Assembly: GCA_011389575.1 (NCBI GenBank)
Contig: JAABUB010000018.1
Span: 1 to 48,642, forward strand
Direction of reading: 5' to 3'
Length of the DNA: 48,642 bases
DNA from: Desulfotignum sp.
GTDB lineage: Bacteria > Desulfobacterota > Desulfobacteria > Desulfobacterales > Desulfobacteraceae
The notes below the pieces were generated by a model. The model did no database searches. It worked only from the letters and a program-made list of their open reading frames with translations, and was not told where the DNA came from. Shown one piece after another: positions 18,951 through 33,004 of this stretch (the first letter of the stretch is position 1; each line of letters begins with the position of its first letter). The translations under genes were made by a program, and so were the position numbers.

Positions 18951-19682
18951 ATGACAGCAGGCAGGATGAAACGAATGGAAAAATCACACAAGGCAAAAGA
19001 TATTTTACAGATAGATGTTTCAGAGGCAAAACTGACAGCCTGGCAGGAAATCGTGGATACCATGGCTGATATCATAGGTATCCCGGCCGGCCTTATCATG
19101 CGGCTGAATGATCCGGATATTGAAGTGCTTGTGTCAAGCAAAGGACAGGACAACCCCTACCATCCGGGAGACAAAGAAAGTGTCTGGGAATCCGGACTGT
19201 ATTGTGAGACTGTTCTCAAAAGCCGGGACAAGCTGCTTGTACCCAATGCGCTTGCAGATGAAAACTGGAAAGACAACCCGGATATCAAATTACATATGAT
19301 ATCCTATCTGGGCTTTCCCATTCTTTTACCGGATGGGAGTGCGTTTGGTACGATCTGTGTACTGGATAGAAAAGAAAATATGTATGCAGACAATTATGAG
19401 AAACTTCTCCGTAAATTTCGGGACCTGATTCAAGCTGATCTTGAAATCATTTACATGAACAAAATGCTGCAGGATGAAAACAAACAATTAACAGATTATA
19501 TCTCCGAGATTAAAACCCTCAGGGGTATATTGCCCATCTGCATGCACTGCAAAAAAATCCGTGATGACAAAGGATACTGGAACCAGGTTGAGGCTTATAT
19601 CCAGAAAAATTCAGAGGCCCGTTTCAGTCATGGTATCTGCAGGGAATGTGCTGAAAAATACTATCCTGACCTGAATCTTTAA
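18951..19682 (+). CDS. GAF-domain protein with C-terminal Cys4 (putative zinc) motif
   Basis: This 243-residue cytoplasmic protein has a GAF domain from about residue 25 to 165 (AGLIMRLNDPDIEVLVSSKG, ESGLYCETVLKSRDKLLVPNA, YLGFPILLPDGSAFGTICVLD). A short helix leads to a C-terminal module with CMHCKKIRDDKGYWNQVEAY and FSHGICRECAEKYYP, i.e. two Cys-x2-Cys pairs about 36 residues apart. This tail recurs at the end of many deltaproteobacterial PAS/GAF/receiver proteins and in the gene at 27601. I know of no established function. ATGs at 18966 and 18975 are alternative starts; 18975 has the better AGGCAGG spacing. Confidence 0.82.
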   Translation: MTAGRMKRMEKSHKAKDILQIDVSEAKLTAWQEIVDTMADIIGIPAGLIMRLNDPDIEVLVSSKGQDNPYHPGDKESVWESGLYCETVLKSRDKLLVPNALADENWKDNPDIKLHMISYLGFPILLPDGSAFGTICVLDRKENMYADNYEKLLRKFRDLIQADLEIIYMNKMLQDENKQLTDYISEIKTLRGILPICMHCKKIRDDKGYWNQVEAYIQKNSEARFSHGICRECAEKYYPDLNL

Positions 19683-19725: not shown

Positions 19726-20358
19726 ATGAAAAATGACGGTAACATATCTCTGGGTTTTGACAATGAAGTCTATCCTGCAGGTACGCACATGTGTCTCATC
19801 TACAATGATGAAGCAGAACGCCGAAAAATTATCACCAGATTTCTGGAAGGAGGGCTGAAAACAGGAGAGAAAGTTGCCTATTTTGTGGATAGCATGCCTT
19901 TGATGGATGTGTATGCCTGGCTGGAAGAAATGGATATCGGCATACCGAAAAAAAAGCTGAATGCCGCATTCACAGCAGCTGAAGCCCAGAAAACCTACTG
20001 CCCGGACAACACTTTTGTTCCTGACAGAATGCTGGCAACGCTACGAAACTTTTATAGCCAGTCTGTGGATCAGGGCTATCCCCATTGCCGTGTCAGCGGC
20101 GAGATGGGGTGGGCTTTAAAAAACCTGCCTGGTTCCGACCGGATCATGGAATATGAATCACTGGTCAATGTGGTTGTTGCCACGCATCCGGTAACCGCTG
20201 TCTGCCAGTATGATGCCAACCGGTTTGACGGAGCCACCATACTCAAATGCCTTGAGGTGCATCCCTACATGATTGTTCGGGGGCAGGTGGTGCACAATCC
20301 CTATTACATGACACCGGAAGAGTTTCTGGGGCCGCTTCAAAAAAATCCAGAGAAGTGA
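19726..20358 (+). CDS. MEDS-domain (DcmR-like sensory) protein
   Basis: This 210-residue protein matches the MEDS domain (methanogen/methylotroph DcmR sensory): GTHMCLIYNDEAERRKIITRFLEGGLKTGEKVAYF, then a small-domain region with SGEMGWAL and YESLVN, and a C-terminal HPYMIVRGQVVHNPYYM. MEDS has a RecA/KaiC-like appearance and is linked to sensing in methylotrophs and methanogens; the ligand is unknown. There is no DNA-binding or kinase domain, so it is a stand-alone sensor. The ribosome site AAGGAG is good. It is directly followed by a hybrid kinase gene and lies in the same locus as the corrinoid/methyltransferase pair. Confidence 0.82.
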   Translation: MKNDGNISLGFDNEVYPAGTHMCLIYNDEAERRKIITRFLEGGLKTGEKVAYFVDSMPLMDVYAWLEEMDIGIPKKKLNAAFTAAEAQKTYCPDNTFVPDRMLATLRNFYSQSVDQGYPHCRVSGEMGWALKNLPGSDRIMEYESLVNVVVATHPVTAVCQYDANRFDGATILKCLEVHPYMIVRGQVVHNPYYMTPEEFLGPLQKNPEK

Positions 20359-20379
20359 AAAAATGACAGGGGCGTGAAT

Positions 20380-22431
20380 ATGGATGCAGACATAAAAATC
20401 ATCGGCCAGCTCTCAACCGCGGAAAACATACTGCATGTTTTTCCCTCCCCCCGGAAAATAGGGGACTTTTCTACCCAGGCATTAAAAAAGGTTCCGGGCA
20501 TCGCCAGAAATTCTATTTGTTTCAAGGACTTATCACAACCATCCGGTGATCTGGTCAAAGCACCTTGTAAAGACTGTTATATGGCTTCCCAAGTGCCTCT
20601 TTCAAAGGTCCAACTGGTATGCGGGTTTGCCGGCAGACACAACCATAAAACCTATTATCTGAAAACAGCAGCCCATTTTTTTGGTTTTCTGATTATTGAA
20701 ATACAAGATCCAGACCTGTTTTCTCCCTATGCCCCGTTTATCAGCAATTTTTCCAATTCTATCTCCGTTACCCTGGAAAACCTCTGGCAAAAAGAACAAT
20801 TACAGACCAAAAATACGGTATTGAAACAGCACCGCCACAATCTTGAATCCTTGATAAAAAAAAGAACCCAACAGCTTGAAAAAAGTGAACACCTGCTGGA
20901 CCTTACCCAAAAAATGGCAAAAATCGGGGGATGGGAATGGGATGTGGAAAGACAGACCATGACCTGGACCGCTGAGACCTATCGCATCCATGGGCTCGAT
21001 CCCGGCAATCATGAAAAGTGTTCCCCTGAAACCAGCCTGAAATGTTACGACCCGGCAGACCAGCCAGTCGTGTGGAAAGCTTTCCAGCAGTGTATAAAAG
21101 ATAAAACCCCTTATGACATGCAGTTTCATATCACAACATACCAAAACCGCAGGGTATGGATCCGCACCATGGGGTTGCCGGTAGTGGAAGGCACCCGGGT
21201 AACCAAGGTCATCGGCAATATCAAGGATATATCTGATTACAAGAAACTGGAACAAGAAAGCATTGCCCTGACCAGACAACTCCAGCATGCCCAGAAAGCG
21301 GAAAGCCTGGGCCGCATGGCCGGTGCCATTGCGCACCATTTCAACAACCAGCTCAATGTGGTCATGGGCAATCTGGAAATGGCCATGGAGGATTCCCCGG
21401 CTGATGCGGTGTATCATGATAATCTGACTGCAGCCATGCAGGCAGCCGGCAAGTCTGCAGAAATCAGCGGGTTGATGTTAACCTATCTGGGACAGGGTGA
21501 GGGCGAAACCAGCAAACTGGAACTATCCAGATTCTGCCTGTCATATCTTCCCATACTGCGGCCCACCCTGCCAGGGGGCATTGTGCTGGAAACAGATTTC
21601 ATGTCTGTGGGACCGGTTGTTCTGGCAAATGCAAACAATATGCAGATGATTTTGAGCCACTTGATTACCAATGCTGCAGAAGCCATCGGTGACAAGACCG
21701 GCCGGATCAAACTGGCCACAAGTATACTGCCGGTATCTGATATTCCCAAAGTTGTCACCGCCCCTATTGACTGGCAGCCCGGTGCAAAAATGTATGCCTG
21801 CGTGGAAGTATCAGATACAGGGTGCGGCATAAGCGACCAGGATATGGAAAAATTGTTTGATCCCTTTTTCACCACCAAATTCACGGGCCGGGGCTTGGGA
21901 CTTTCAGTGGTATTGGGATGGGTAAAGTCCTGGGATGGGGCCCTTTGTGTAGAGAGCAAAAAAGATTGTGGTACGCGTGTGCGTATTTTACTGCCGGTGC
22001 AGGAGAATATGGTTTCACCCCCGTCTGCTGCAGTCAGCCTATGGCCTTCTGAAGCAAAAGGCAGCACTGTGCTGCTGGTGGATGATCAGGAGGCTGTGCG
22101 AAAAATTGGTGTGGGCATGCTCCAGCGGTTAGGGTTCTCCCCCCTGTCCGCTGCGGGCGGCCCGGAGGCTGTGGCCTTGTTTGGCAAACATCAGGACAGT
22201 ATCTGCTGTGTGATAACCGATCTTACCATGCCGGATATGGATGGATGGGAAACCCTGATGGCCCTGCGTAAAATTCGGCCGGATCTGCCCGTGATTCTGG
22301 CCTCCGGCCATGACCAGACCCAGGCAATGAACCGGGATCACCCGGAAAAATTTCAGGTTTTTTTACACAAACCATATGCATTGGTTCAATTGAAAAATGC
22401 CCTGCATAAGGCGTTACAGGATAAGACTTGA
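20380..22431 (+). CDS. Hybrid histidine kinase: GAF-like, PAS, HisKA, HATPase, receiver
   Basis: The protein has 683 residues. The N-terminal 150 form a GAF-like region with PCKDCYMASQVP. A coiled coil leads to a PAS/PAC domain (about 185-285; IGGWEWDVERQTMTWTAETY). The H-box is GAIAHHFNNQLNVVMGN, the ATPase has DTGCGISDQD and GRGLGLSVVLGWV, and the C-terminal receiver has VDDQEAV, phospho-acceptor VITDLTMPDMDG and LHKPY. No membrane segment, so it is cytoplasmic. I use the ATG at 20380, with AGGGG 7 bases upstream, rather than the GTG at 20374. It starts 21 bases after the MEDS gene, so the two are probably one transcript. Confidence 0.92.
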   Translation: MDADIKIIGQLSTAENILHVFPSPRKIGDFSTQALKKVPGIARNSICFKDLSQPSGDLVKAPCKDCYMASQVPLSKVQLVCGFAGRHNHKTYYLKTAAHFFGFLIIEIQDPDLFSPYAPFISNFSNSISVTLENLWQKEQLQTKNTVLKQHRHNLESLIKKRTQQLEKSEHLLDLTQKMAKIGGWEWDVERQTMTWTAETYRIHGLDPGNHEKCSPETSLKCYDPADQPVVWKAFQQCIKDKTPYDMQFHITTYQNRRVWIRTMGLPVVEGTRVTKVIGNIKDISDYKKLEQESIALTRQLQHAQKAESLGRMAGAIAHHFNNQLNVVMGNLEMAMEDSPADAVYHDNLTAAMQAAGKSAEISGLMLTYLGQGEGETSKLELSRFCLSYLPILRPTLPGGIVLETDFMSVGPVVLANANNMQMILSHLITNAAEAIGDKTGRIKLATSILPVSDIPKVVTAPIDWQPGAKMYACVEVSDTGCGISDQDMEKLFDPFFTTKFTGRGLGLSVVLGWVKSWDGALCVESKKDCGTRVRILLPVQENMVSPPSAAVSLWPSEAKGSTVLLVDDQEAVRKIGVGMLQRLGFSPLSAAGGPEAVALFGKHQDSICCVITDLTMPDMDGWETLMALRKIRPDLPVILASGHDQTQAMNRDHPEKFQVFLHKPYALVQLKNALHKALQDKT

Positions 22432-23030: not shown

Positions 23031-25868
23031 ATGTCACCCAGACCCAGTTATGCAGATTTAGAAAAAAGAATTCATGTCCTGGAACAGATTGCATCAGAAT
23101 ATGAGAACCTGAAAAAAGAACTGTCCGGCATCAGCACATTCAATGAAGATGTTGTCAAAGCAATGAGCGACGGCCTTGTGCTGACAGACATCCAGGGAAC
23201 TGTCACTTTTGTGAATCCCGGATTTGTGGCAATGCTGGGATACCGGCCCGAAGAGATTATCGGCCGGTTATGGCTGGATATCATATCCCTGGACCATTAT
23301 GACATGGTGCAGGAAGCGGAAAGACGGCGTGCTGAGGGTAAAACAGACCGGTATGAGATGGTTCTGCAGCACAAAAGCGGTGAAGAACTGCCGGTTCTGA
23401 TTGATGCCAGTCCCCGGTTTGACAAACAGACCGGAGAATTTGTTGGTACCCTGGGTTTTGTCACCGACATCACCCAGCACAAGCATACTGAATCAGCGCT
23501 CAAGGAAAATGCCCTGCGGTATCAGCTTTTGTTTGAACAGTCTCCCATCGGGGTATTTCATTTCGACAATGACGGCACCATTATAGACTGTAATGACAAT
23601 TTTGTGAACATCATCGGGTCATCCAGAAAAGCGCTGGTGGGCCTGAACATGCTCACCCTGCCGGATAAAAAACTGGTCAAAGAGCTGCAGCAGGCGTTAA
23701 AAGGCCATACCGGTTTATATGAAGGGGTTTATTGCAGCATCACTGCAGAAAAATCCACCCCGGTGAAAGTATATGTGTCCCCTTTGCTGGATAAAGAGGG
23801 AAAATCCTTTGGCTGTGTGGGTATTGTGGAGGACATCACCTACCAGAAACAGGCGGAAGAGGCGGTTAGAAAAAATGCAGCCATGCACAGCAAAATGGTT
23901 GCCAATATCGGGGATGTGATCGTCATCATAGACCGGGACGGCATCAACCGCTACAAAAGCCCGAATATTGAAAAATGGTTCGGGTGGAAACCTGAGGAAG
24001 TCGTGGGGGAGGTTACCTGGAAAAACGTACACCCGGATGACCTGTATACAACCCAGCAGTTTTTTGCTGATATTATACAAAAACCGGGATCTTCGGGTAC
24101 AATTGAGTGCCGGTACAGGTGCAGTGACGGGACCTACAAATGGATAGAGTTCACAGGCACAAACCTTCTGCATGACCCGGATATCCAGGGCCTTCTGGGT
24201 AATTACAAGGATATATCCGACCGGAAAAAAGCGGATGCGGAAAAAGAAAATCTCCAGACACAGTTGATCCAGGCCCAGAAAATGGAGTCAGTGGGAAGGC
24301 TGGCCGGCGGGGTTGCCCATGATTTTAACAACATGCTCACCGTGATCCTGGGCTATGCCCAGGCAGCCATGGATCAGGCAGACCCGTCCGGACCGGTGCA
24401 TAAAAATTTACAGGAGGTCCTCACTGCGGCCCGGCGGTCGGCGGATTTGACCCGACAGCTACTCACCTTTGCCAGAAAACAAATCATCGCACCCAAGGTG
24501 CTGGACCTGAATGCCACTGTGGAAAGCATGCTCAGCATGCTGCGCCGGCTTATCGGAGAGGATATCGACCTGGTTTGGCAGCCCGGCACAGGTCTGGGAA
24601 CGGTTAAGGCAGATCCTTCCCAGATCGATCAGATTCTGGTGAACCTGTGTGTCAATGCCAAAGATGCCATTGCGGATGTGGGGAAAATCACCATTGAAAC
24701 AGGGGCGGCATCCTTTGGCCAGGCTTACTGCCATGACCATCCCGGCGTTTCTCCGGGGGACTTTGTGATGCTGGCGGTGAAAGATGATGGATGCGGCATG
24801 GACAGACATGTCCTGGCAAATCTGTTCGAGCCGTTTTTTACCACCAAGGATGTGGGGGAAGGCACGGGCCTGGGGCTTGCCACAGTATACGGCATTGTCC
24901 AGCAGAACAAGGGTTTTCTTACGGTTGACAGCACGCCGGAACAGGGCAGCACGTTCATGGTGTATCTGCCCCGGCATATGGCGGCCAAAGCTTCCCCTGA
25001 CCCATCCCCCCATTTGCAGGCACCCGCAGCCACAGGACATGAAACCATTTTGGTGGTGGAAGATGAACCTGCAATTTTAAGAATGACCTGTATGATGCTT
25101 GAACGCCTGGAATATGATGTGTTATCAGCCGGTTCACCAGATGCTGCATTGGCCCTGGCCAAAAATCACAACAAAAACATTCATCTGCTTTTGACCGATG
25201 TGGTCATGCCGCAGATGAACGGCAGGGACCTGGCAGAAGAATTGAAAAACCTGCACCCGGATGTTAAGTTTTTATTCATGTCCGGTTATGCCGCAGATGT
25301 CATCTCCCTGCAGAACGTTGGAGACAAAGGTGCCGGGTTTATCCAGAAACCGTTTTCCAAAAACGAACTTGCCGATAAAGTGCGCAAGACCCTGGAATCG
25401 GTCAGAGAAAAAGAGGTTCAAGAGCGCCCGAAAAAAGAAAAAGCAGCGCTTCCCGGAGGTGATGAACATATCCTGCTGGTGGATGATGAAAAACCCATTG
25501 TGCAGCTTGAAAGCCAGATTCTGGAACGACTGGGCTATACAATCACTGCATTTACAGACAGTCTTGAAGCTGTGGCTGCATTTCAGGCAGATCCTGAGAG
25601 GGTGGACCTGGTTATCACTGACATGGCCATGCCCCACATGACCGGGGCCAAACTGGCTGGAGAAATGATCGCCATCAGATCGGATATTCCCATTATCATG
25701 TGCACCGGGTTCAGCGACCGGATCAGCGAAGAAACAGCTAAATATGCCGGGATAAAACATCTTCTCATGAAACCGGTGGTGATGTCTGATCTGGCCTGTG
25801 CCGTGCGCAAGGTGCTGGATGAAGCCAAAAGACAAAAGATAAAGGATATAATGGAACATGACAGATAA
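23031..25868 (+). CDS. Hybrid histidine kinase: three PAS, HisKA, HATPase, two receivers
   Basis: This 945-residue cytoplasmic protein has three PAS/PAC units between about residues 40 and 400 ([54 protein letters not shown]). The H-box is [20 protein letters not shown], the ATPase has [10 protein letters not shown] and [13 protein letters not shown]. Receiver 1 has [16 protein letters not shown]; receiver 2 has DMAMPHMTG and MKPVVM. Its last 11 bases overlap the start of the corrinoid-protein gene, which in turn overlaps the methyltransferase gene. That tight coupling implies a shared function, plausibly sensing corrinoid or methyl-donor status. Confidence 0.93.
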
Positions 25869-26493
25869 AACTGTGGATGCATTCACCCGGGCCCTGCTGG
25901 ATGTGGACAGACTGGCCGCAAAACAGATTTTACAAAAGCGCGGTCATGATACCTCTCCCATAAAATTTGCCGAAGATGTGGTGCTGCCGGCGCTTGAACG
26001 TATCGGAGCCGGATGGCAGGCGGGGACGCTTGCGCTTTCACAGGTTTACATGGCCGGCAGAATCTGTGAAGACCTCATTGACCAGATTCTGCCGCCGGAA
26101 GATCCTGACAGAAAAAACCAGCCCAAAATGGCCATCTGTATTCTCAGCGACCACCACAAACTGGGAAAAATCATGGTCTATTCCTTTTTGCGGGCCAGCG
26201 GGTTTGATCTGGCAGACTACGGGGTGATGGAAGTGGATGACCTGGTGGGACAGGTAAAAAAAGATAAGATTGACATATTGCTGATCTCTGTTCTGATGCT
26301 GCCCTCGGCTTTGAAAATAAAAGCTGTCAAACAAAAACTTGCCCGTCTCGGGTGTGATGTGAAACTCATTGTGGGCGGGGCCCCGTTCCGATTTGATGAC
26401 CAATTGTGGAAAACAGTGGGCGCTGATGCCATGTGCAGGGATGCATCAGATGCTGTGGCTGTCATCGAAAAAATCATGGAGGGTATGGCATGA
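25858..26493 (+). CDS. Corrinoid (B12)-binding methyltransferase-type protein
   Basis: The protein has 211 residues. A helical cap domain (about 1-85; RIGAGWQAGTLALSQVYMAGRI) is followed by a B12-binding Rossmann domain. It has the DxHxxG signature in SDHHKLGK (His is the lower cobalt ligand), LLISVLML, and IVGGAPF. These match corrinoid proteins of methyltransferase systems, although the cap motif is divergent. It overlaps the upstream kinase gene by 11 bases and the methyltransferase gene by 4. It may carry methyl groups for the next gene's product, or serve as the corrinoid-binding sensor subunit of the kinase. Confidence 0.9.
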   Translation: MTDKTVDAFTRALLDVDRLAAKQILQKRGHDTSPIKFAEDVVLPALERIGAGWQAGTLALSQVYMAGRICEDLIDQILPPEDPDRKNQPKMAICILSDHHKLGKIMVYSFLRASGFDLADYGVMEVDDLVGQVKKDKIDILLISVLMLPSALKIKAVKQKLARLGCDVKLIVGGAPFRFDDQLWKTVGADAMCRDASDAVAVIEKIMEGMA

Positions 26494-27545
26494 ATCAGAC
26501 ATCTGTCACATCAATGCAGCGGGTTCTGACAACCCTTGGACACCGGGAACCGGACCAGGTCCCGTTTTTTCTTCTGGCCACACTGCATGGCGCAAAAGAG
26601 GTGGGGCTGCCCATTAAAACCTATTTTTCAGACCCGGACAATGTGGTGGAAGGGCAGATGCGGCTGCTGGCAAAATACAGGCATGACTGTATTTACAGCT
26701 TTTTTTACGCGCCGGTGGAAATTGCGGCATTCGGCGGAGAGGTGATCTTTATGGATGACGGTCCCCCAAACTCCGGTGAACCGGTTATCAAAAAAGCAGG
26801 GGACATAAAAAATCTGGCAGTGCCGGATGTGAAAAACACCCCGTGCCTGGAAAAGGTGTTGACGGCAACACACAGGCTCAAAGAAAGGGTAAAAGATACC
26901 GTGCCCATCATCGGTGTTGTAATGTCTCCGTTTTCCCTGCCGGTGATGCAGATGGGTTTTGACAGATATTTTGACCTGATGTTTGACAAACCGGATCTGT
27001 TCGCACACCTGATGCAGGTCAACCAGGCCTTTTGTTTGGCATGGGCCAATGCCCAGCTGGCAGCCGGCGCCACAGCCATCTGCTATTTTGATCCGATTTC
27101 CTCCACCACCATCACCACCAGGGACATGTATCTGAAAATCGGGTTTAAAATTGCCAAACAGACCCTGGCAAAGATCAATGGCCCCACTGCCACGCACATG
27201 GCCTCCGGCCGGTGTCTGCCCATCATTGATGATATTGCCGCCACCGGAACTGCGGCTGTCGGGGTGAGCTGCCATGAAAACATGACCCTGATAAAAAACG
27301 CCTGCAGGGACAAACTGGCGGTCATCGGAAATTTAAACGGTATAGAGATGTGCCGCTGGTCTTCCGAAGATGCTGAAAACCATGTGAAAGAGGTGATAAC
27401 AAAGGCCGGCCCCGGCGGCGGATTCATCTTGTCCGACAACCACGGGGAGATACCCTTTCAGGTGCCGGATGAGGTGTTGATGGCCATATCCGAAGCAGTG
27501 CATGAATGGGGCCGGTATCCCTTGAACTGGACAGCAGACAAATAA
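26490..27545 (+). CDS. Uroporphyrinogen decarboxylase-family (MtaA/CmuA-like) methyltransferase
   Basis: The 351-residue protein starts at the ATG at 26490, four bases inside the upstream gene. The fold family is that of UroD and the corrinoid:CoM methyltransferases MtaA/MtbA: HREPDQVPFF near the start, GVVMSPFSLPVMQMGFD, DPISSTTITTRDMY, and the late region THMASGRCLPIIDDIAATG. The usual zinc triad of MtaA (His-x-Cys and a distant Cys) is not intact: the first Cys position reads Ala/Ser, with a Cys a few residues later, and the last is replaced in SDNHGEIPFQVPDEV. It could use other ligands or have a non-methyltransferase role. Coupling to a corrinoid protein favours methyl transfer. Confidence 0.85.
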   Translation: MNQTSVTSMQRVLTTLGHREPDQVPFFLLATLHGAKEVGLPIKTYFSDPDNVVEGQMRLLAKYRHDCIYSFFYAPVEIAAFGGEVIFMDDGPPNSGEPVIKKAGDIKNLAVPDVKNTPCLEKVLTATHRLKERVKDTVPIIGVVMSPFSLPVMQMGFDRYFDLMFDKPDLFAHLMQVNQAFCLAWANAQLAAGATAICYFDPISSTTITTRDMYLKIGFKIAKQTLAKINGPTATHMASGRCLPIIDDIAATGTAAVGVSCHENMTLIKNACRDKLAVIGNLNGIEMCRWSSEDAENHVKEVITKAGPGGGFILSDNHGEIPFQVPDEVLMAISEAVHEWGRYPLNWTADK

Positions 27546-27600
27546 ACGGGACATCAGACAAACCACAACTGAAAATTCTATTATATCAACAAGGATGGTA

Positions 27601-28326
27601 ATGCCGATAATGCCGGAACCTAACAGCACAGACCTTCTGGAAAAAGAGATACAGTCAGCCCGGAAAAAGCTGTCCGAATATGCCATGGCGTTTGATCTTT
27701 TGACAAGGATCGCCCATTCATTTACGGAACAAGAAACCATTGAGAGCATCCTTGCGGTATTTGATCAGCTTTTTTCTCCCCGGACACTTGTTTTTGTGTC
27801 GTTGTCCCGAAACCTGCCTGACAAGGTGTATGCATTATCGCCGTTGCCCGAAGACGGGGAGGCCATAAAAGACAGATTGCACGGCTTTGCCCGGGAATAT
27901 GCCTGGACAGTCTCAAAACAAGGATTTCAGGTCATGATCCGCTACAAGGACAAAGACCTGGGGGTGCTTGAAGTCGACCATGTAAAATTCCCGCAGGAAA
28001 AGGACCGGTACCTTAATCTGACCTTGTCCATGGCCGGGGTGTGCGGCCTGGCCATGGAAAATGCCAGGCGCTACCAGAAGATCAAAGACACCCAAAAAAA
28101 GCTGAGAAATGAAAAAGAAAAACTGGAAGCTGCCCTGGCTGAAGTCAAAAAACTGAGCGGTTTGATTCCCATCTGCAGCCATTGCAAAAAAGTCAGGGAT
28201 GACACAGGGTACTGGAATCAGGTGGAGGCATATATCCAGGAGCATTCCGAAGCAAAATTCAGCCACGGTATCTGCCGGGATTGTGCAAAAAAATACTATC
28301 CAGGCTATGACCTGTATGAGGAGTAA
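27601..28326 (+). CDS. GAF-like sensor protein with C-terminal Cys4 motif
   Basis: This 241-residue protein has a GAF-like N-terminal half (about 1-170; FDLLTRIAHSFTEQETIESIL, LVFVSLSRNLPDKVYALSPL, GVLEVDHVKFPQEKDRYL), a short coiled coil (KLRNEKEKLEAALAEVKKL), then the module CSHCKKVRDDTGYWNQVEAY with a second pair in FSHGICRDCAKKYYP. I use the ATG at 27601, with AGG six bases upstream; 27595 and 27610 are alternatives. The N-terminal half is nearly identical to the gene at 31949, which ends in GGDEF instead. It follows the methyltransferase gene by 55 bases and may belong to its transcript. Confidence 0.82.
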   Translation: MPIMPEPNSTDLLEKEIQSARKKLSEYAMAFDLLTRIAHSFTEQETIESILAVFDQLFSPRTLVFVSLSRNLPDKVYALSPLPEDGEAIKDRLHGFAREYAWTVSKQGFQVMIRYKDKDLGVLEVDHVKFPQEKDRYLNLTLSMAGVCGLAMENARRYQKIKDTQKKLRNEKEKLEAALAEVKKLSGLIPICSHCKKVRDDTGYWNQVEAYIQEHSEAKFSHGICRDCAKKYYPGYDLYEE

Positions 28327-28475: not shown

Positions 28476-31400
28476 ATGAAAGAGATGTTCACCGAAACTG
28501 ATATTATGGCTGAAAAACCGTCCTATGAAGAATTGGAAAAACGAATTCAGGATCTGGAAAAATCAGAATCTGAGCGTAAGCAGGTCGAGGCAAAACTGGC
28601 CGAAAGCGAGGCCAAGTACCGCCAATTGATCGAAAAAACCCATGACATCATCTATTCTCTCAGTCCCGAGGGTGTGTTTACCTATGTTTCACCATCATGG
28701 ACAGTACTGTTAGGACATCCGGTGGCGGATATCGAAGGCCATGCCATCACGGAGTTTATCCATCCCGAAGACCTGCCGAATTGCTTTATTTTTTTGCAAA
28801 AGGTGGTAGAAACAGGACAGCGGCAGGAAGGTGTTGAGTACCGTGTGCGGCATATCAACGGCGAGTGGCGCTGGCATACATCAAGCGCCGCTCCAACCAG
28901 AAATACCGCTGGCATGGTCGCCGGCTATGCAGGTATTGCCAGAGATATCTCTGAACAAAAGCGGGCGGAGGCGGAACTGCAAAGCGCCCATGAACGCACC
29001 CGCGCCATTATGGAATCTGTCCAGGCAGGAATTATTCTGGTGCGCTGCTCTGACAAGGTCATTGTCGAGGCCAATCCCGCAGCGGCGCGTATGGCCGGGC
29101 TTGATCTGAAAGGGTTGACTGGCAAGATCTGCAACCAATACCTGTGTCCGGCCCAAACAGGACAATGTCCCATTATCGACCTGGAACAGGAAGTGGACAA
29201 TGCCGAGCGAACGATCCGCCGTTTCGACGGCACACTTGTCCCCATTCTTAAGACCGTTACGCGGTTTGACATTGATGGGCAGCAACACCTGCTCGAAAGC
29301 TTTGTCGATATTACGGAACTGCAATCTGCACGGCAGGATCTGGAGAAAATCAATCTATCGCTGGAGGCCGCCACCGCACGGGCTAACAGCATGGCTGTGG
29401 AGGCTGAAATGGCCAATATTGCCAAAAGTGCTTTCCTTGCCAACATGAGTCACGAGATCCGAACACCCATGAACGGCGTGATCGGCATGACCGGGTTGCT
29501 GCTTGATACCACACTCGACGAGGACCAGCGGCGCTACGCTGAAATAGTGAAATCCAGCGGCGAGTCTTTGCTGGGCCTGATCAACGATATCCTGGATTTC
29601 TCCAAGCTTGAGGCGGGCAAACTTGAAATGGAGATGCTGGATTTCGACCTGCGGGCCACGCTGGACGGGTTCGCCGAAATGATGGCGCTCAAGGCCCACG
29701 AGAAAGGGCTTGAGTTCCTCTGCGCTGCCGCGCCCGATGTGCCGGCCTTTCTTGTGGGCGACCCCGGCCGCCTGCGCCAGATTCTGGTAAACCTTACCGG
29801 CAATGCGGTCAAGTTTACCCAAAAGGGTGAAGTGGCTGTGCGCGCGAGTATCGAACAAGAAACAAAGACAGACGTCTTGATCCGTTTCTCCGTGCGTGAC
29901 ACGGGGATCGGCATCCCTGTGGACAAACAGGATGCGCTGTTTCAGAAGTTCTCACAGGTGGATGCATCGACTACGCGCCAGTACGGCGGCACAGGCCTGG
30001 GGCTGGTTATTTCCAAACAATTGGTGGAGGCCATGGGTGGAGAGATCGGGATAAACAGCCATGCACCACCCCTTCAGGCAGGCATGAAAGGCTGCGGCAC
30101 CGAGTTCTGGTTCACTGTCTGCCTGGGCAAACAGCCGGAGCAAGCCCGGGAACGTGAGCGTGCCATGTCAGCCGGTCTGTTGCAGGCGGGCATCAGCGGT
30201 GCGCGCATTCTCGTCGTTGATGACAACGCCACCAACCGGGAAATTCTTCGTGTACAGTTTACGGCCTGGGGTGCACGTTGCGGCGAAGCACCCGACGGAG
30301 AAACGGGCCTGGACCTGTTGCGACAGGCCATGGACGCAGGCGACCCCTTTGTTGTGGCCGTGCTTGACATGCAGATGCCGGGCATGGACGGTGAGACGCT
30401 GGGCCGTGCCATTCGTGCCGATACGGCGTTACACGACACCCGTCTATTGATGCTGACATCCCTGGGGGAGCGGGGGGACGTTACACGTCTTGAAGAGATC
30501 GGCTTCACTGCCTATCTCACCAAGCCCGTGCGCCAATCCGAATTGTTCGACAGCCTGGCTGCCGTATTCTCCGGACAGGTGGCGTACAGCAAAAAACCGA
30601 TCCTGACCCGCCACAGGGTCCGGGAGCTGCGCCGCACCAACGTGCGTATCCTGCTGGCTGAAGACAACATAACCAATCAGCAGGTGGCCATTGGCATCCT
30701 CAACAAGCTCGGCCTGCGCGCAGATGTAGTAGCAAACGGTGCTGAAGCTCTCAAGGCTTTGGAGCAGATCCCCTACGACCTGGTGCTCATGGATGTGCAA
30801 ATGCCGGAGATGGATGGACTGGAGGCCACCCGGCAAATCCGGGACCCCGGAACCGCTGTCCGCAATCACACCGTGCCCGTGATCGCCATGACCGCCCATG
30901 CCATGGCCGGAGACAGGGAAAAATGCCTGGAAGCCGGTATGAACGACTACCTTTCCAAACCGGTTGCGCCGGAAGCCCTGGCCGGTAAGCTGGAAAAATG
31001 GCTGAAGGCGGAATCCCGTCCGGATGCAGACACTGGGGAACCGGCAACATCTCTGCCGGAACCGCAAGGCCTGTCTGATATATTTGACCGAAGCGTATTT
31101 GTCCATCGGATGATGGGTGATGAGGACCTGGCAAACATGATCATCACCGGATTCCTGGAAGATATGCCCGGGCAGGTAAGCATTCTCCGGAACCTTGTGC
31201 AGCAGAGCCAGGTGCAGCAAGCCAGAGCCCAGGCCCATAAAATCAAAGGCGCTGCGGCAAATATCACCGCCATGGCCTTCCATGACAGCGCCATGGCCAT
31301 GGAAAATGCCGGTAATGCAGGTGATATGATGGAATTGAACAGATTAATGCCACAATTGGAAAACCGGTTCAGCCAGTTACGGGAGATATTGAAAATATGA
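28476..31400 (+). CDS. Hybrid histidine kinase, BarA-type: PAS-PAS-HisKA-HATPase-REC-REC-Hpt
   Basis: This 974-residue protein opens with a coiled coil ([14 protein letters not shown]), then two PAS domains (about 45-160 and 170-285; the second contains [14 protein letters not shown], a possible redox or metal Cys cluster). The H-box is [19 protein letters not shown], ATPase boxes are [10 protein letters not shown] and [13 protein letters not shown]. Receiver 1 has [13 protein letters not shown], receiver 2 [13 protein letters not shown], and the C-terminal Hpt has [13 protein letters not shown]. It holds a full four-step phosphorelay in one chain. No membrane segments. GGAGA supports the ATG at 28476. 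Between about 28950 and 30750 codon choice looks different (more CGC/CGT and GAC), hinting at a mosaic origin. Confidence 0.93.
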
Positions 31401-31949
31401 AGATACTGATCGCAGAAGATGACTTGACATCAAGAAATATTCTGGCGGCAATGTCAAAAAAATGGGGATTTGATCCTGTTATTGTCAAAGACGGCATAGC
31501 GGCATGGCAGGTCATGCAGCAGGCTGGAGCCCCGCCCCTGGCAGAAACAGAGGCAAGAGCGCGAGCGGCTCCAGGGGGTTTTGGAAATGGCCGGGGCTGT
31601 TTGCCATGAGATAAACCAGCCATTGCAGATTGCTGCAGGCATGTCGGAAATTCTTTTGTTGGATATGTCAGCCGAAGATCCCGATTATGCACCGCTGCAA
31701 AACATTCAGGCCCAGGTTCACCGCATTGGCAGCCTGACCCGGAAAATCATGCAGATTACCCGGTATCAATCAAAATCATATTTAAAGGGTCATATCGTGG
31801 ATATTGACCAGGCATCCAGTTGACTGCCTTGATGCAATGGATTGTCCTGCGCAGTTTTGTCGGTAACCGATACCGGCACCGGCATCGACCCTGTTGTCAT
31901 GAATAAGATTTTTGATCCCTATTTTACGACCAAGGAAAAAGGATGGTAA
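31397..31949 (+). pseudogene. Relic of a receiver-kinase gene (REC, HisKA and HATPase pieces)
   Basis: A receiver starts at 31397 ([19 protein letters not shown]) and breaks after WQVMQQ, before the phospho-acceptor. A frame change leads to the H-box VLEMAGAVCHEINQPLQIAA and a dimerisation helix ending near 31800. A third piece (about 31858-31949) reads VTDTGTGIDPVVMNKIFDPY then FTTKEKGW and stop, the ATPase N- and G1-box start. The receiver core, the N box and most of the ATPase are lost. It overlaps the upstream kinase stop by four bases, and its own TAA overlaps the next ATG (TAATG), so the old operon coupling persists. Confidence 0.78.
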
Positions 31950-33004
31950 TGCCGGAACCCAACAACACAGCCCTTCTGAAAAAAGAATTACAGTCAGCCC
32001 GAAAGAAGTTGTCTGAATATGCCATGGCGTTTGATCTGTTGACAAGGATCGCCCATTCATTTACGGAGCAGGAAGCCATTGAGAGCATCCTTGCAGTATT
32101 TGATCAGCTTTTTTCTCCCCGGAATCTTGTTTTTGTGTCTTTGTCCCGAAACCAGCCTGACAAGGTTTATGCATTATCGCCTTTATCCGAAGACGGTCAG
32201 ACCATAAAAGACAGATTGCACGGTTTTGAGCAGGAACATGCCTGGACAGCTTCAAAAAAAGGATTTCAGGTCATGATCCGCTACAAGGGCAAGGACCTGG
32301 GGGTGCTTGAAGTCGACCACGTAAAATTCCCACAGGAAAAGGACCGGTACCTCAATCTGACCTTGTCCATGATTGAGGTCTGCGGCCTGGCCATTGAAAA
32401 TGCCAGGCGCTACCAGAAAATCAAAAATACGGAAAACAAACTGAGAAATGAAAAGGAAAAAATCAGGCATCTTTCCATTACAGACAATTTGACAGGCTGC
32501 TACAACAGGCTTTATATCTCGGAGAACCTCGACAGGGAGGTGAGCCGTTCCTTGCGGTACAAACGCAGCCTATCATTGGCAATGTTAGATATTGATCAGT
32601 TCAAAATTGTGAATGACACTTACGGTCATCAATGTGGTGACAAGATACTGGTGAAATTGATAAAGAGGGTAATATCCAACACCCGGGAAAAAGTGGATTG
32701 GCTTGCCAGGTACGGGGGCGACGAATTTCTTCTGGTGATGCCTGAGATCGATGAAAAACAGGCTTTTCATACCTGCCAAAGAATAAGAAAAATTGTGGAA
32801 GAAATGCAGATAGAATGGAAGGGCAGTGTGATTCTCATCACCGCAAGTTTTGGTTTAACCGGGTTCAATCCCGCTGAAGCGGCTATTTCGGTTAATGCGG
32901 AACAGCTCATAAAAGCCGCAGACGAAGCTCTTTACAAAGCGAAGCAAACAGGTAAAAACAGGGTGGCGACAAACTTTATAAAAAGCCAAAAACCGATTAT
33001 GTGA
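31949..33004 (+). CDS. GAF-like sensor diguanylate cyclase (GGDEF)
   Basis: The protein has 351 residues. Residues 1-170 are the GAF-like domain almost identical to that of the gene at 27601; residues about 178-345 are a GGDEF domain (DNLTGCYNRLYISENL, LAMLDIDQFKIVNDTYGHQCGD, WLARYGGDEFLLV, AADEALYKAKQTGKNRV). The catalytic GGDEF motif is intact. The inhibitory RxxD site five residues upstream reads EKVD, so product inhibition through that site is doubtful. It should make cyclic di-GMP. Start at 31949, with AAAGG upstream; its ATG overlaps the relic's stop codon. Confidence 0.9.
   Translation: MPEPNNTALLKKELQSARKKLSEYAMAFDLLTRIAHSFTEQEAIESILAVFDQLFSPRNLVFVSLSRNQPDKVYALSPLSEDGQTIKDRLHGFEQEHAWTASKKGFQVMIRYKGKDLGVLEVDHVKFPQEKDRYLNLTLSMIEVCGLAIENARRYQKIKNTENKLRNEKEKIRHLSITDNLTGCYNRLYISENLDREVSRSLRYKRSLSLAMLDIDQFKIVNDTYGHQCGDKILVKLIKRVISNTREKVDWLARYGGDEFLLVMPEIDEKQAFHTCQRIRKIVEEMQIEWKGSVILITASFGLTGFNPAEAAISVNAEQLIKAADEALYKAKQTGKNRVATNFIKSQKPIM

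Follow-up and report, generated by a model that had tools for sequence, protein, structure and literature searches.

The DNA analysed here is a stretch of 48,642 nucleotides from a Desulfotignum sp. genome (contig JAABUB010000018.1; hereafter, the window), and three consecutive forward-strand genes near its middle very probably form a dedicated signalling unit. The proposed cassette would comprise a corrinoid (B12-binding) protein, a UroD-superfamily methyltransferase-like protein and a transducer with a GAF domain (usually a DUF1638-GAF protein), and its output appears to be exchangeable between a histidine kinase, a diguanylate cyclase and a Cys-rich tail. It probably represents a kind of sensor not described before, and not a catabolic pathway; the fuller description, a three-gene sensory cassette with exchangeable output and the methyl- or cobalt-state readout proposed below, is favoured with moderate confidence. 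In the window, the corrinoid gene (25858..26493; 211 amino acids, with a cap and a Rossmann domain bearing DxHxxG; Pfam PF02607 and PF02310) is followed by the UroD-type gene (26490..27545; 351 amino acids from its ATG; Pfam PF01208, structural model and alignment) and by a short transducer gene (27595..28326) recognized through homologues that follow UroD genes, with a GAF-fold domain at approximately residues 8-185, termed GAFx here, and a Cys-rich C-terminal tail. An earlier note on this DNA had read the corrinoid/UroD pair as a possible sensor reporting to the hybrid kinase encoded upstream. Its open reading frames (ORFs) for kinase, corrinoid protein and UroD-type protein, with overlaps of 11 and 4 bases between them, were confirmed in the window; the third gene, just outside the span covered by that note, had not been noticed.

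A scan of 84,980 species genomes yielded 255 relatives, the best 80 of which were retained and, together with the window, make up the 81 loci considered here. These loci come from Thermodesulfobacteriota, Nitrospirota, Bacteroidota, Ignavibacteriota, Chloroflexota, Pseudomonadota, Spirochaetota, Planctomycetota, Bacillota, and others, mostly as metagenome-assembled genomes (MAGs) in which single taxon placements may reflect binning errors; one cassette holder, Desulfonema magnum 4be13 (L070), has a complete genome. The closest named relatives are Desulfotignum MAGs, with UroD proteins 91-92% identical to that of the window. The corrinoid part is located just 5′ of UroD in 80 of the 81 loci, including one fused protein (L117), the exception being L130, where the corrinoid ORFs lie 3′ of UroD and are themselves followed by the third gene. 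A third gene with GAFx follows UroD in 78 of the 81, and in the other three the contig ends within approximately 100 bases of UroD; in L126 the third gene is cut by the contig end. The conserved unit thus consists of the corrinoid protein, UroD and third genes, in this order. An overlap between the corrinoid and UroD ORFs was seen at 72 of the 79 junctions measured, and its length is exactly 4 bases at 40 of them; it is more than chance, with the proviso that ORF starts were set mechanically and some longer overlaps are overstated; the 4-base ATGA overlap of the window (26490..26493, + strand) is of this conserved junction type. Residues D98, H100, and G103 of the corrinoid protein are kept in all 80 aligned homologues. 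The protein has the PF02607 and PF02310 domains with DxHxxG that are used to recognize methyltransfer corrinoid proteins, and scores below the cut-off of NCBIfam TIGR02370 (70.6 versus 215.3 bits). The fused Brocadia protein (L117:1285-2985, 566 amino acids) unites corrinoid and UroD parts in a pairing described for CmuA. Two Bacteroidota loci have a second corrinoid gene, located 3′ of the GAFx kinase in L112 and 3′ of the kinase beyond it in L131.

The association between UroD and the third gene was also evident within the family. Among 86 family genomes, a clear UroD group (47-92% identity, with the next paralogues at approximately 31% or below) was present in 21, and GAFx was found in 23, comprising all 21 with this UroD and two of the 65 without it (Fisher p 4e-18, for genomes that are related and hence not independent). 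One of the two UroD-less cases is a fragment in a 78% complete genome, and the other is a marginal match (E 4e-4). The source assembly is fragmented (163 contigs, 83% complete); within it, GAFx was found only in the window, and there twice. The second copy (31943..33004, + strand) is 86% identical to the first and is joined to GGDEF, the diguanylate cyclase domain, recognized by the motif in the translation. Thus, the window itself presents one sensor domain with two outputs. Ten other matches to the third protein in the source genome cover its Cys-rich tail alone.

Pfam returned no match for the third protein of the window, nor for GAFx when nine full-length homologues were scanned. The AlphaFold model of a Riflebacteria homologue (pLDDT 89.6, pTM 0.71) matched GAF-containing sensors, namely, the dual-sensor kinase 6oaq (E 2.8e-5, though at low TM-scores), KdpD through its single GAF domain (E 0.006; target-based TM-score 0.64), and a DUF484 GAF protein (E 0.009). 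The 74 third genes scanned for domains carried DUF1638 (52), HATPase_c (43), HisKA (35), receivers (14), and GGDEF (11); Candidatus Methylobacter oryzae (L111) is one holder of a GGDEF form. The third gene of the window has no HisKA, HATPase_c, or GGDEF, while two unlinked DUF1638 genes are present in the source genome. Four cysteines of the DUF1638 part are near-invariant (C17 in 36/36, C45 in 34/36, C75 in 34/36, and C97 in 35/36), as counted in 36 of 44 aligned rows, the remaining 8 having no DUF1638 region. The Cys-rich C-terminal tail (CxxC...CxxC, approximately 60 amino acids), encoded at 28150-28326 and 19458-19679 of the window and at nine other places in the source genome, is common to several signalling proteins, GAF and receiver proteins included, and had no Pfam match in the two window proteins.

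When output type was mapped onto the UroD tree, at least 12 changes were required (68 rows; the possible minimum is 2). The tree represents all but 13 of the 81 loci, these being the 7 outside the 74 loci scanned for third-gene domains and 6 of ambiguous output, 3 of which are cut at contig ends. Well-supported branches alone force 5 kinase changes and 4 GGDEF changes, with bootstrap values that had not settled. Corrinoid, UroD, and GAF distances are correlated (r 0.61-0.70, n=71, 10 of the 81 loci being left out). A constant input with a swapped output is the usual mark of a sensory module. The proposal in the earlier note that the pair may be a sensor and not a catabolic pathway was supported in part, in that the pair is tied to signal transducers across phyla, but its constant partner is the downstream DUF1638/GAF gene and not the upstream kinase.

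The AlphaFold model of the UroD-type protein (pLDDT 94.2) gave the top Foldseek TM-score with the MtaA-type structure 4ay7 (0.83/0.86) and the best E-value with HemE (6w2o), and 4ay7 was also the best profile match by sequence; the protein scores below the NCBIfam cut-offs of TIGR01463 (102.8 versus 235.4 bits) and NF040654 (89.4 versus 400 bits). The H-x-C of MtaA-type enzymes is replaced by H-x-A, with the histidine in 80/81 and A238 in 80/81 sequences, such that one zinc cysteine of MtaA has been lost. The distal position, which we take to hold the remaining zinc Cys of the MtaA H-x-C ... C site (the 4ay7 alignment ends before the distal Cys), is occupied by H318 (SDNHGEIP) in 81/81. With these zinc cysteines replaced, thiol activation of the MtaA type appears unlikely. 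The 81 sequences share 36 invariant columns, including D316, N317, H318, and E320, in a stretch partly biased by the search: LSDNHGEI was one of two scan patterns, and its invariance in the 80 relatives is partly built in. The motif is also present throughout a family-level alignment (19 rows) that was obtained by a search without the pattern. Zinc-type O-demethylases such as OdmB and VdmB have the zinc motif E-x14-E-x20-H, which occurs in 0/81 of the UroD sequences, and this class was rejected.

The best reading of the cassette is that it reports corrinoid methylation or redox state, and we infer methyl transfer, docking, and a signal direction of the following form. The UroD protein would bind a methylated ligand and hand the methyl group to the corrinoid cobalt, or otherwise alter the cobalt state; the corrinoid protein in its altered state would dock on the DUF1638 part with its four near-invariant cysteines; and the GAF domain would pass the docking signal to the output. 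In the window, the corrinoid would be read out via the GAF domain alone or via one of the two unlinked DUF1638 genes. The reading step in the window is the least certain part, since its third gene has no DUF1638. That the signal is corrinoid methylation by the UroD protein is put at an even chance, the main alternative being cobalt redox state, with light an unlikely signal. Evenly balanced, too, is the broadest proposal: a new sensor class in which the corrinoid methyltransferase pair serves as a "trigger enzyme" and DUF1638-GAF, with DUF1638 fused or unfused, reads methylation (or redox) and feeds phosphotransfer or cyclic di-GMP (c-di-GMP) signalling, spread horizontally over about a dozen bacterial phyla.

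Several observations weigh against this sensory interpretation or its simplest form. DUF1638 is absent from 22 of the 74 third genes, that of the window among them. Mutant fitness data in Phaeobacter connected DUF1638 with a split methionine synthase whose corrinoid protein stands alone (PMC5764234), a genetic tie that in itself speaks for the proposed reading, and growth of Ruegeria on N-osmolytes raised the abundance of a DUF1638 protein (PMC12478193); in these organisms, however, DUF1638 stands alone as a protein and is linked to the reactivation of cobalamin, which argues against a purely sensory domain. A RamA-type protein is encoded in 29 of 44 cassette genomes, such that ordinary catalytic cycling is possible in many of them. 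A metabolic enzyme that carries its own regulation would likewise account for the strong conservation of the UroD sequence. Signalling families are the commonest among the neighbouring genes and offer no metabolic hint of a ligand. Finally, in a control set of 13 distant UroD paralogues (23-31% identical, the best-scoring full-length ones among many more weak paralogues, viewed with wide flanks), five have no detected DUF1638 (L176, L177, L178, L181, and L182), complicating any simple story. In four of these (L177, L178, L181, and L182) a RamA-type gene is close by, as in a methyltransfer pathway, with a GGDEF gene 3′ of RamA in L177; the remaining one has neither.

A corrinoid gene adjoins all 13 of these distant paralogues. 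In the other eight, the order is corrinoid gene, UroD, a separate DUF1638 gene, and then a kinase (seven loci) or a GGDEF protein (one locus), with no RamA, MttB, or pterin-binding match in those stretches; DUF1638 was confirmed by Pfam in five loci and rests on a home-made profile in three. Corrinoid/UroD pairs thus come in two arrangements, one with RamA and one with DUF1638 plus an output, and the group of the window belongs to the second. The link between DUF1638 and a signalling output recurs, as a fusion in one subfamily and as adjacent genes in the others. The earlier note had named beforehand an outcome that would speak against it, i.e., a pair found regularly with a substrate methyltransferase and no kinase; this was not seen for the present UroD group; other corrinoid/UroD pairs do lie beside RamA, in 4 of the 13 distant paralogues.

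Among the alternatives, a corrinoid redox or oxygen sensor is the most plausible, if still doubtful. Here, the UroD-like protein would be a docking or ligand-binding partner only, and the signal would be the oxidation state of cobalt or a metal site formed by the DUF1638 cysteines. The near-invariance of those four cysteines is consistent with such a sensor, as is the finding that RamA was not found in 15 of the 44 cassette genomes searched (L095 being left out; assembly completeness not given). The 36 invariant UroD columns suggest instead a specific ligand or catalysis, with the reservation that the D316-E320 stretch is partly search-biased.

An unlikely alternative is a catabolic operon resembling the mec cassette of anaerobic dichloromethane degraders, in which the UroD protein would act as methyltransferase 1 (MT1) on a methylated or halogenated substrate, with the corrinoid protein as methyl carrier and the kinase or GGDEF protein as no more than a regulator of the pathway. 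The mec cassette has the closest published gene order, beginning with MecA (histidine kinase), MecB (corrinoid), and MecC (UroD-superfamily, listed as methyltransferase I), and also includes MecE, MecF (methyltransferase II, MTII), and MecI, with further methyltransferases besides MTII, as well as a transporter and a receiver protein; it is held to be a degradation cassette (PMC9768040). UroD-superfamily proteins can indeed be MT1 enzymes (CdmB, MtvB, OdmB, VdmB, and CmuA), and zinc-free examples exist in CdmB and MtvB (PMC13222342). The UroD-type protein may therefore itself be the MT1 gene that the earlier note had missed, and the weight which that note placed on there being no visible MT1 gene is correspondingly reduced. 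High conservation of the UroD sequence would also suit such an enzyme. In contrast to mec, however, no MTII was found here, and the DUF1638/GAF transducers have swapped outputs; the likeness is one of gene order and not of sequence comparison. Within up to 9 kb on each side, RamA was found near 0/80 cassettes and MttB near 2/80. A pterin-binding methyltransferase 2 (MT2) domain was found near 1/80, in an opposite-strand MetH-like gene. These single-sequence searches used queries from the source genome and covered RamA, MttB, and pterin-binding MT2 among the MT1/MT2 families; the RamA or MTII gene by which such clusters are recognized was not found as part of the cassette. The 15 cassette genomes in which RamA was not found likewise argue against a catabolic operon, and switching from kinase to GGDEF would be unexpected for a pathway regulator. 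The source genome has a separate set of catabolic type, MttB-corrinoid-pterin protein, on contig 154, and 11 MttB-type and 4 RamA-type matches in total.

It is improbable that the upstream hybrid kinase (23031..25868, + strand) is the dedicated partner of the corrinoid protein, the form in which the earlier note had cast its sensor. This PAS/CckA-like kinase of 945 amino acids contains, by Pfam, three PAS stretches, HisKA, HATPase_c, and two receivers, and overlaps the corrinoid gene by 11 bases (25858..25868, + strand). In several Desulfobacteraceae, too, kinases are encoded directly upstream. The overlap stands in the window but not as a conserved trait, the two genes being 15 and 114 bases apart in two Desulfotignum relatives, and the kinase adjoining the corrinoid gene varies even among Desulfotignum relatives. 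In the 76 loci examined for flanking genes (L088, L110, L113, L115, and L130 being left out), a same-strand upstream gene was located within 300 bases in 37, and only 16 of these 37 encode a kinase ATPase domain. The kinase was on these grounds rejected as a conserved partner. Residues 1-800 match one kinase of the relative L037 (85-94% identity by segment), while the stretch 801-937 shares 84% identity with the end of the kinase that follows it in L037. This pattern suggests that the kinase of the window arose by a local fusion or deletion from two adjacent kinases like those of L037, its second receiver coming from the next gene. It is a lineage-specific, locally coupled gene outside the conserved unit, and may be coexpressed with the cassette in the window.

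A CarH-type B12 photoreceptor is very improbable: the cap Trp of the B12 domain is largely conserved (W53 in 78/80; G50 in 77/80, the GxxW of the light signature), and B12 domains that sense light have been reported in fusions with GAF, diguanylate cyclase, and MEDS domains, but the "EH" of that signature (PMC11796333) falls on V63/Y64, with E63 and H64 in 0/77 (3/80 gapped), whereas another B12 protein of the source genome (L165) does carry W-x9-EH. The latter locus (L165:4878-8455, contig 101) encodes a protein of 278 amino acids that has both W-x9-EH and GxxxP, motifs of B12 domains that sense light; its gene overlaps a GGDEF gene, followed by a kinase and a receiver protein with a Cys-rich tail, and it is a possible B12 photoreceptor operon, judging by these motifs.

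Other signalling genes surround the cassette. The next gene downstream (28476..31400, + strand) encodes, by Pfam, a PAS hybrid kinase with two receivers and an Hpt domain, and is a possible downstream relay. Of 40 close same-strand genes 3′ of the cassette (71 loci examined), 16 encode HATPase_c and 17 encode receivers. A MEDS-domain gene (19726-20358) and a second hybrid kinase (20374-22431), both reported upstream in the earlier note, were verified by Pfam, the former being located between a GAF/Cys-tail gene and this kinase. The MEDS gene was rejected as a part of the cassette: tblastn with the window protein matched 1/81 loci, the window itself, in a search that distant MEDS proteins could escape.

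None of the individual families is new, and the outputs are of ordinary kinds; searches of an open-access library, judged by titles, abstracts, and passages, turned up no description of the combination, subscription papers being outside their scope. MtaA/MtbA methylcobalamin:coenzyme M methyltransferases share the UroD fold and the best profile match (4ay7), but differ in the zinc Cys, replaced here by Ala in 80/81, and the present protein does not reach their NCBIfam cut-offs. Compared by description and not by sequence, the chloromethane enzyme CdmB, a zinc-free UroD-type MT1, has the same fold without the zinc site and a separate corrinoid protein, but adjoins CdmA (MT2) in a catabolic set, unlike the gene described here (PMC13222342). 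Type 1 mlp clusters likewise combine UroD-family proteins with a corrinoid protein and are widely distributed; they differ in having several Mlps and a Ram/RACE protein, and the terms "sensor" and "signal" are absent from the main text (PMC10418091). CarH-type photoreceptors and photocobilins also use a B12 domain to feed signalling outputs, with the light signature "EH" that is absent here. H-NOX, too, binds its cofactor as a separate protein, and its partner in the operon is either a kinase or a cyclase, depending on the species. The present cassette resembles it as an accessory cofactor sensor with exchangeable outputs, and differs in its cofactor and in an extra methyltransferase-like component.

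These results point to a likely non-metabolic role for corrinoid proteins and UroD-family methyltransferases whose genes would normally be assigned to methylotrophy or heme pathways. They also suggest a job for DUF1638, for which the study that tied it to a corrinoid protein offered no specific proposal (PMC5764234). Should methyl transfer prove to be the signal, the cassette could fairly be called a new class. If the proposed reading is true, bacteria, many of them from anoxic habitats, would sense methylated compounds or corrinoid state directly and pass this information to kinases or c-di-GMP.

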